A program made the position numbers and the translations under genes. Of a stretch of 64,000 bases of DNA, positions 23,519 through 24,347 are shown in pieces. The DNA lies in the NCBI GenBank assembly GCA_015068825.1, contig SVJU01000005.1, positions 1 through 64,000 of the forward strand, in the 5' to 3' direction. Positions within the stretch are counted from its first letter, which is position 1; the number at the start of each line of letters is the position of its first letter. The notes under the pieces are model-generated. The model ran no database searches, had not been told where the DNA came from, and saw nothing but the letters and a program-made list of their open reading frames with translations. The DNA comes from Oscillospiraceae bacterium. GTDB taxonomy: Bacteria; Bacillota; Clostridia; UMGS1810.

Positions 23519-23547
23519 TTGACACACATTTTGATTTTTGATATACT
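23519..23547 (+). promoter_or_regulatory. Sigma-A-type promoter of Cys-rich protein leader
   Basis: TTGACA (23519-23524), 17-nt spacer, TATACT (23542-23547). Confidence 0.75.
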
Positions 23548-23553
23548 TCTAAT

Positions 23554-23737
23554 TGCGACACAAGTTAATATTGGTGGAATTTATAAAAAGTGTGTATTTC
23601 TACTTTGGTAAAAATGCAGGCTCTGTTTTCGCATACTTTTTATAAGTTCCGAGAATTTGTGTCGCAGCAAATTAGAGCTATGTGTTTTTCATGCGTGGCT
23701 TTATGCTGCGCATTTTTTAATTTAAGGAGAAATTTTT
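23554..23737 (+). ncRNA. Candidate cis-regulatory attenuator/riboswitch-like leader
   Basis: 19-bp helix 23576-23594/23632-23650; antiterminator AGCUAUGUGU/AUGCGUGGCU overlapping terminator AUGCGUGGC-UUUAU-GCUGCGCAU-UUUUU directly before the RBS. Confidence 0.6.
23691..23718 (+). terminator. Attenuator terminator in the leader
   Basis: ATGCGTGGC TTTAT GCTGCGCAT followed by TTTTT. Confidence 0.7.
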
Positions 23738-23965
23738 ATGCTTATTGATGTAACGGGAATTATACTGACGCCAGGAAATATGGGAAAGGATTGTGTTGGT
23801 AACGGTCAGCATTTTGATGAGAATGGAAATTTAATAGAATGCTGTTGTGATGAATGTGATTATATGATGTGCTGTATAAATAAAATAAACAAAGAAAAAT
23901 GCAGAAATTGCCCTGTTTTTGATTGCCCGAACAATATTAATTCAAATAAAAAATCCCTGATGTAA
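23738..23965 (+). CDS. Small cysteine-rich protein (75 aa)
   Basis: RBS aaggag; ECCCDECDYMMCC...CRNCPVFDCPN; 11 Cys; bounded by promoter and terminator. Confidence 0.8.
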   Translation: MLIDVTGIILTPGNMGKDCVGNGQHFDENGNLIECCCDECDYMMCCINKINKEKCRNCPVFDCPNNINSNKKSLM

Positions 23966-23983
23966 ATCAGGGATTTAATTTTT
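23951..23983. terminator. Bidirectional terminator between Cys-rich gene and rnpB
   Basis: aaatccctga-tgtaaa-tcagggattt followed by aattttt. Confidence 0.75.
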
Positions 23984-23991
23984 ATAAAAAT

Positions 23992-24333
23992 GAGTAATCC
24001 TGTAAGCCGGGTTCTGTTTTAAATAGTCATCTATCTAGACCGCACATCTCTATGCGGTTCAAGCCACCTCTATCGAAAGATATCGGGCAAATATATTTCT
24101 TTCTTTACACGGTGTTGCATCAGATGGGGTTTACACATCAGGTTGATTTCCCAACCCATGGTGAGCTCTTACCTCGCCTTTTCATCCTTACCGTAAAAAT
24201 ACGGCGGTTCTTTTCTGTTGCACTTTCCTTAGAGTCGCCTCCACCGGGAGCTACCCGGCACCCTGCCCTATGATGCCCGGACTTTCCTCATATACATCCT
24301 TTCGGATTGCATCTGCGACTATTTGGATTACTC
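23992..24333 (-). ncRNA. rnpB: RNase P RNA (bacterial)
   Basis: Minus strand GAGUAAUCC...GAGGAAAGUCCGGGC...ACAGAACCCGGCUUACAGGAUUACUC; terminal P1 pairing GAGUAAUCC/GGAUUACUC. Confidence 0.96.
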
Positions 24334-24347
24334 ATATTTAAGCTTAT

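Follow-up and report, generated by a model that had tools for sequence, protein, structure and literature searches.

Transcription attenuation riboswitches combine a promoter, a structured 5' leader and mutually exclusive antiterminator and terminator hairpins placed just ahead of the ribosome binding site (RBS), and the leader RNA described here is like them in each of these respects. It differs from them in having few invariant unpaired bases and variable P1 and P2 helices, in being a candidate without an assigned ligand, in occurring in multiple copies per genome ahead of unrelated genes, and in being absent from Rfam. Attenuators of the trp type are also alike, given that consecutive segments pair alternately, with the terminator coming last; however, five segments are found here instead of four, no leader peptide was recognised, and segments 2 and 3 are separated by the long 3' strands of P2 and P1.

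In antisense attenuation of the pT181 type, RNA-RNA pairing removes the antiterminator arm, which leads to termination. The likeness would be one of analogy: the antiterminator arm may be paired off in a similar manner here, but its complement lies in the same transcript, whereas in pT181 it lies in an antisense RNA. In RCd22-abiF (PMC12373285), one promoter serves both a short terminated RNA and the gene that follows it. AbiF and type III modules thus share with our locus the order of a short terminated RNA and then a gene under one promoter, but here no repeat pair was seen inside the RNA, and the downstream genes are diverse.

The leader studied occupies positions 23519-23737 of the window (i.e., the whole stretch of 64,000 nucleotides that was analysed) and is one copy of a larger RNA family.

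Elements of the leader RNA

All elements lie on the + strand. As an earlier note on this DNA had placed it, a sigma-A type promoter, TTGACA-N17-TATACT with a TG-extended -10 box, is present at 23519-23547 and matches the consensus at 11 of 12 positions. The predicted 5' end of the transcript is the 5' strand of helix P1, UUGCGACACAAGUU (23553-23566), which pairs with the 3' strand AAUUUGUGUCGCAG (23654-23667) in a covarying 14-bp helix, the latter strand being assigned by covariation and partner energies. P1 encloses P2 and had been overlooked in the earlier note; the AATTTG/CAAATT hairpin proposed there has its letters in place, but as a structure it is overridden by P1. Between P1 and P2 lies the J1/2 bulge (23567-23575), which contains an AUA that is invariant among aligned units of the family (within AAUAUUGGU). 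P2 itself (23576-23594 with 23632-23650) is the 19-bp helix already noted, here obtained by folding, and its sequence and length vary across the family; the small hairpins claimed within its insert were found as well.

The tip of the long hairpin begins with the 5' strand of P3 (segment 1, 23595-23603), assigned from the energies of own versus swapped partners. It is followed by the apical loop UUUGGU (23604-23609), which lies 5' of an A tract and whose UUG is conserved among aligned units, and by the apex strand AAAAAUGCAGGCUCU (segment 2, 23610-23624), the complement of segment 3 according to covariation and partner energies. Segment 3 is the 5' arm of the antiterminator together with a U tract, AGAGCUAUGUGUUUUU (23674-23689), and covariation and folding give it either segment 2 or segment 4 as partner. 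This long-range complementarity between the apex and the antiterminator arm, likewise overlooked before, includes A5 against U5 of the antiterminator loop. The terminator consists of a 5' arm supported by covariation (segment 4, 23691-23699) and of a 3' arm plus U run (segment 5, 23705-23718), the latter supported by sequence and model match and predicted to end the short transcript.

The terminator noted ahead of the RBS was recovered as a stem (23691-23713) with a T run after it. The antiterminator is also present, with 13 bp in the fold rather than the 10 first proposed, and the claim that the two are mutually exclusive holds: segment 4 is common to the 3:4 and 4:5 pairings, both of which are supported by covariation. 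Downstream are a Shine-Dalgarno (SD) sequence, AAGGAGAA (23724-23731), and an open reading frame (23738-23965) for a small Cys-rich protein of 75 aa, which profile searches left without an assigned family. A promoter and an intrinsic terminator therefore both lie ahead of the RBS, as expected of an attenuator leader.

The leader folds at -61.7 kcal/mol, in comparison with -37.8 kcal/mol for shuffled sequences (z = -6.7; none of 200 shuffles as low). Its terminator and antiterminator folds are nearly equal, at -56.0 and -55.7 kcal/mol, and given this gap of 0.3 kcal/mol, a modest push would decide between them.

Covariation and competing pairings

Covarying helices, which the earlier note had suggested looking for, were found to be common to 20 leaders. 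In the MAFFT alignment of these leaders (A5), P1, apex:segment 3 and the terminator together reach 93% pairing, and in 22 of the pairs both bases vary. Their covariation score is 0.440; shuffles average 0.221 (0 of 500 as high), and slid controls lie at 0.07-0.11. Ten of the 14 pairs of P1 (helix 1) have two-sided changes. The antiterminator alone is weaker, with a score of 0.350 against 0.242 shuffled, yet lies above every slid control. Column 172 covaries both with column 99 in the apex and with column 194 in the terminator arm, with six pair types in each case. The five consecutive segments hence form a chain: 1:2 (P3), 2:3 (apex:antiterminator arm), 3:4 (antiterminator) and 4:5 (terminator).

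The pairings were also evaluated by swapping partners among units, in an independent set of 83 units that are outside the covariance model and have no Cys-rich gene; neither apex:segment 3 nor segment 3:4 is part of the model's structure. For apex:segment 3, own partners average -16.5 kcal/mol and swapped partners -12.0 kcal/mol (z = -14.8; 0 of 10,000 permutations), and for segment 3:4 the values are -14.5 and -10.8 kcal/mol (z = -12.5; 0 of 10,000), with independent evolutionary events being fewer than the units counted in these tests. The control pairing of the apex with segment 4 (2:4) gives -6.7 kcal/mol for own and swapped partners alike (z = 0.0), so relatedness alone gives no signal. 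Common descent flatters the swapped partners, hence it does not inflate the advantage of own partners. Segment 1:2 over all units gives -11.2 own against -7.2 kcal/mol swapped (z = -17), and the P1 strands -16.1 against -7.7 kcal/mol. When apex:segment 3 was permuted only within genomes, own partners averaged -16.9 and swapped ones -12.9 kcal/mol (0 of 10,000), and own partners again won for segment 3:4 (0 of 10,000). At the level of sequence, these comparisons show the pairings and their conservation locus by locus, and they place the alternative antiterminator pairing under selection, as expected of an attenuator.

P2 was assessed through folding rather than alignment. Its length across the family averages 19 bp (range 6-39) and has no correlation with that of P1 (rho = 0.16), so no fixed docking geometry is seen for an intramolecular apex:segment 3 contact. 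A rigid fold-back of P2 onto P1 was considered and dropped on the same grounds. The intramolecular 2:3 contact may nevertheless be compatible with the linkers and the J1/2 bulge.

The RNA family and its distribution

A covariance model, R1, was built from the 20 leaders, with P1 and the terminator only as structure; its E-values are rough, and many of the surveyed genomes are metagenome-assembled. Within the window, R1 finds only the unit at 23519-23737. The window's genome has nine units and others have up to 18, and most genomes carrying the leader ahead of Cys-rich genes have 9 to 18. In the class Clostridia, R1 matches 99 of 392 genomes, which belong to 56 of the 222 genera. Among 399 genomes sampled from the phylum, some of them of the same class, the only match at E 1e-4 is in the window's own genome, which also argues for the specificity of R1. 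The set includes just one more genome of the window's genus (G001), and it has zero units, so the family is patchy even among close relatives.

Nearly all units have their own promoter and terminator, and a -10 box (at least 5 of 6 matches) stands directly ahead of P1 in 109 of 117. The J1/2 AUA, the tip UUGNUAAAAA and the antiterminator/terminator block are common to the 115 distinct units collected. Over 118 aligned units, the AUA is conserved at 98% (A), 81% (U) and 97% (A), and few unpaired positions are invariant, alongside the conserved covarying structure.

Some units are found in tandem arrays of two or three, about 210-320 nt apart (L234, L235, L236, L237, L238, L240 and L033). Where the sequence was read, every unit has a promoter ahead of it; in L240, an SD and the remnant of a very short ORF come after the upstream unit. 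In a longer form of the RNA, type B (L006, L008, L041, L052-L054, L056, L058, L063 and L086), an additional hairpin or helix separates P1 from P2, and the tip AUGCAAAUUCC pairs with GGAGUUUGCGU in most. The RNA is present in a few contigs of viral collections, one of which (L265) holds ordinary bacterial genes. In another, from a faecal phage collection (L266, MT837627.1), a unit has a recombinase-like gene nearby, a hint that some copies may travel on mobile elements.

The earlier note had not recognised the aptamer as one of a known class. Rfam 15 gave no match over the RNA at the gathering score for the window and 40 further loci, and the Rfam T-box model did not match these loci either; for two segments, permissive E-values returned chance matches only. 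No description of the RNA was found by topic or motif letters in the text of open papers. The family is absent from Rfam 15 and, on the best reading, constitutes an undescribed class.

Genes downstream of the units

An SD and an ORF follow within 75 nt of the terminator in 76 of the 115 units (median 19 nt). The other 39 lack them; some of these stand alone or are the upstream member of a tandem, and some have SD-like remnants. In the window's genome, a gene follows eight of nine units. The 76 genes comprise at least 29 Cys-rich ones, whose units were gathered through that gene, and 47 others, of which 25 encode short proteins (<110 aa) and 21 have a signal or membrane-like N-terminus according to a simple rule. 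Recurrent families among them are HDF-ending (6), YKKLYF (5), YELGK (2) and AbrB-like (2), and the large proteins include secreted and surface proteins. Downstream of one unit in genome G302 (L180), two membrane-anchored proteins and the ATPase of an ABC transporter are encoded in what looks like an operon. The HDF-ending and YKKLYF small families recur after the RNA in different genomes (L213, L249, L250, L205, L182 and L232; and L174, L181, L184 and L246, respectively) and have no Pfam or NCBIfam name.

The Cys-rich protein

The Cys-rich protein of the window matches no Pfam, NCBIfam or PHROG family, its matches among PDB sequences are marginal, and its AlphaFold model is too weak for use (pLDDT 66, pTM 0.39). 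A plasmid or phage origin was considered and rejected, given that the protein had no match in the plasmid and phage collections searched. The class A bacterial RNase P RNA (window 23987-24334, - strand) is convergent and directly 3' of the gene; a terminator-like hairpin between the two (23951-23976) could serve both strands.

The gene was found in 26 of 392 Clostridia genomes, often in multiple copies, and 80 further loci came mostly from Oscillospiraceae and other Clostridia metagenome-assembled genomes of gut samples. Two paralogues in the window's genome (on contigs C36 and C14 of G000) retain the leader and differ in its helix sequences; the former (G000:C36:64465-64671, L002) adjoins thioredoxin-reductase-like and glutaredoxin-like genes. 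About 30 of these Cys-rich genes are preceded by the leader. Many of the remaining ones lack it and are instead accompanied by a divergently oriented HTH-type gene (including L022, L023, L024, L027, L066, L075, L106 and L110); in several, an inverted repeat of the GGACT type separates the two genes. Judging from this arrangement, control by the RNA and control by a repressor seem to substitute for each other at Cys-rich genes. The link that had been drawn between the leader and the 11-Cys protein is hence not sustained, both because of these leaderless homologues and because, in the genomes searched, the majority of copies lie ahead of unrelated genes or of no gene.

Proposed mechanism and alternative explanations

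The leader probably attenuates transcription in cis, as a member of an undescribed class of RNA. RNA polymerase would start at the foot of P1, where transcription is presumed to begin, and a long hairpin would be made, composed of P1, the J1/2 bulge with its invariant AUA, P2 and P3. As long as P3 (1:2) holds, the 3:4 antiterminator would form and transcription would read through into the gene. If the apex (segment 2) pairs with segment 3 instead, segment 4 would be freed for the 4:5 terminator, and the transcript would end at about 23718. A signal favouring one pairing would set the expression level, and the same device would control different genes in many Clostridia; both termination and the direction of the switch are what we infer. 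In favour of an attenuator are the two paralogues in the window's genome, which keep the leader with different helix sequences, the covariation and swapped-partner results given above, and the SD plus ORF that follow 76 of 115 units. Against it, 39 of 115 units have no SD and ORF, including standalone and tandem units each with its own promoter, stable stems lie between segments 2 and 3 with no fixed docking geometry seen, and the few invariant unpaired positions are scant for a small-molecule pocket.

It is possible, if unlikely, that the terminated RNA is itself the product, i.e., a multi-copy trans-acting small RNA, with the downstream genes read only by leakage. Its apical loop would then pair either with segment 3 of nascent sister transcripts, so that the locus feeds back on itself, or else with different mRNAs. 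This would agree with the own promoter and terminator of nearly every unit, with the standalone and tandem units, some followed by SD-like remnants, with an apex that forms the loop capping a long stem, an arrangement also found in antisense RNAs, and with cross-pairing between units of one genome, which averages -12.9 kcal/mol. However, two thirds of the units lie about 19 nt ahead of a gene with an SD, segment 3:4 covaries per locus as a cis-acting antiterminator requires, and on average the apex fits segment 3 of its own locus more closely than segment 3 of another, which leaves fewer targets elsewhere. Somewhat more doubtful is a large chromosomal RNA network, in which terminated RNAs, each both regulator and target, would expose a tip at the end of a long stem and pair in trans with the antiterminator arms of their own or related nascent transcripts; if true, it would determine how strongly genes for small proteins and surface proteins are expressed across Clostridia.

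That the RNA is a riboswitch for a small molecule or ion, of a class already known but missed by the Rfam models, is very improbable. The overall shape (closing helix, internal bulge, tip and expression platform) is riboswitch-like, but the Rfam search reported above speaks against a known class.

An RNA antitoxin with a terminator and its toxin gene behind it, on the pattern of type III systems or AbiF, is hardly credible: the order of promoter, RNA, terminator and small gene is alike, and RCd22-abiF has a comparable layout, but the downstream families are many and unrelated, large secreted proteins included, rather than a single cognate toxin, and no toxin family was matched among these genes except for one HicA-like protein. 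A sensor of a metal, a cofactor or a redox signal particular to the Cys-rich protein, along the lines of the earlier note, has 29 or more collected units ahead of Cys-rich genes on its side, though these were gathered via that gene, and is extremely improbable given that six of the nine units in the window's genome are not ahead of such a gene, that other Cys-rich homologues stand beside HTH genes without the RNA, and that the downstream genes are diverse, encoding small, secreted and surface proteins.

Significance

Because every base of the three competing pairings is specified, the mechanism of the proposed attenuator is open to study with compensatory mutants. The downstream genes for small uncharacterised proteins and for secreted or surface proteins constitute a candidate regulon in which a common signal can be looked for. 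As the RNA occurs in about one in four of the 392 Clostridia genomes sampled, and frequently in several and up to 18 copies, the family would represent a common and so far unnamed layer of gene control in gut Firmicutes.
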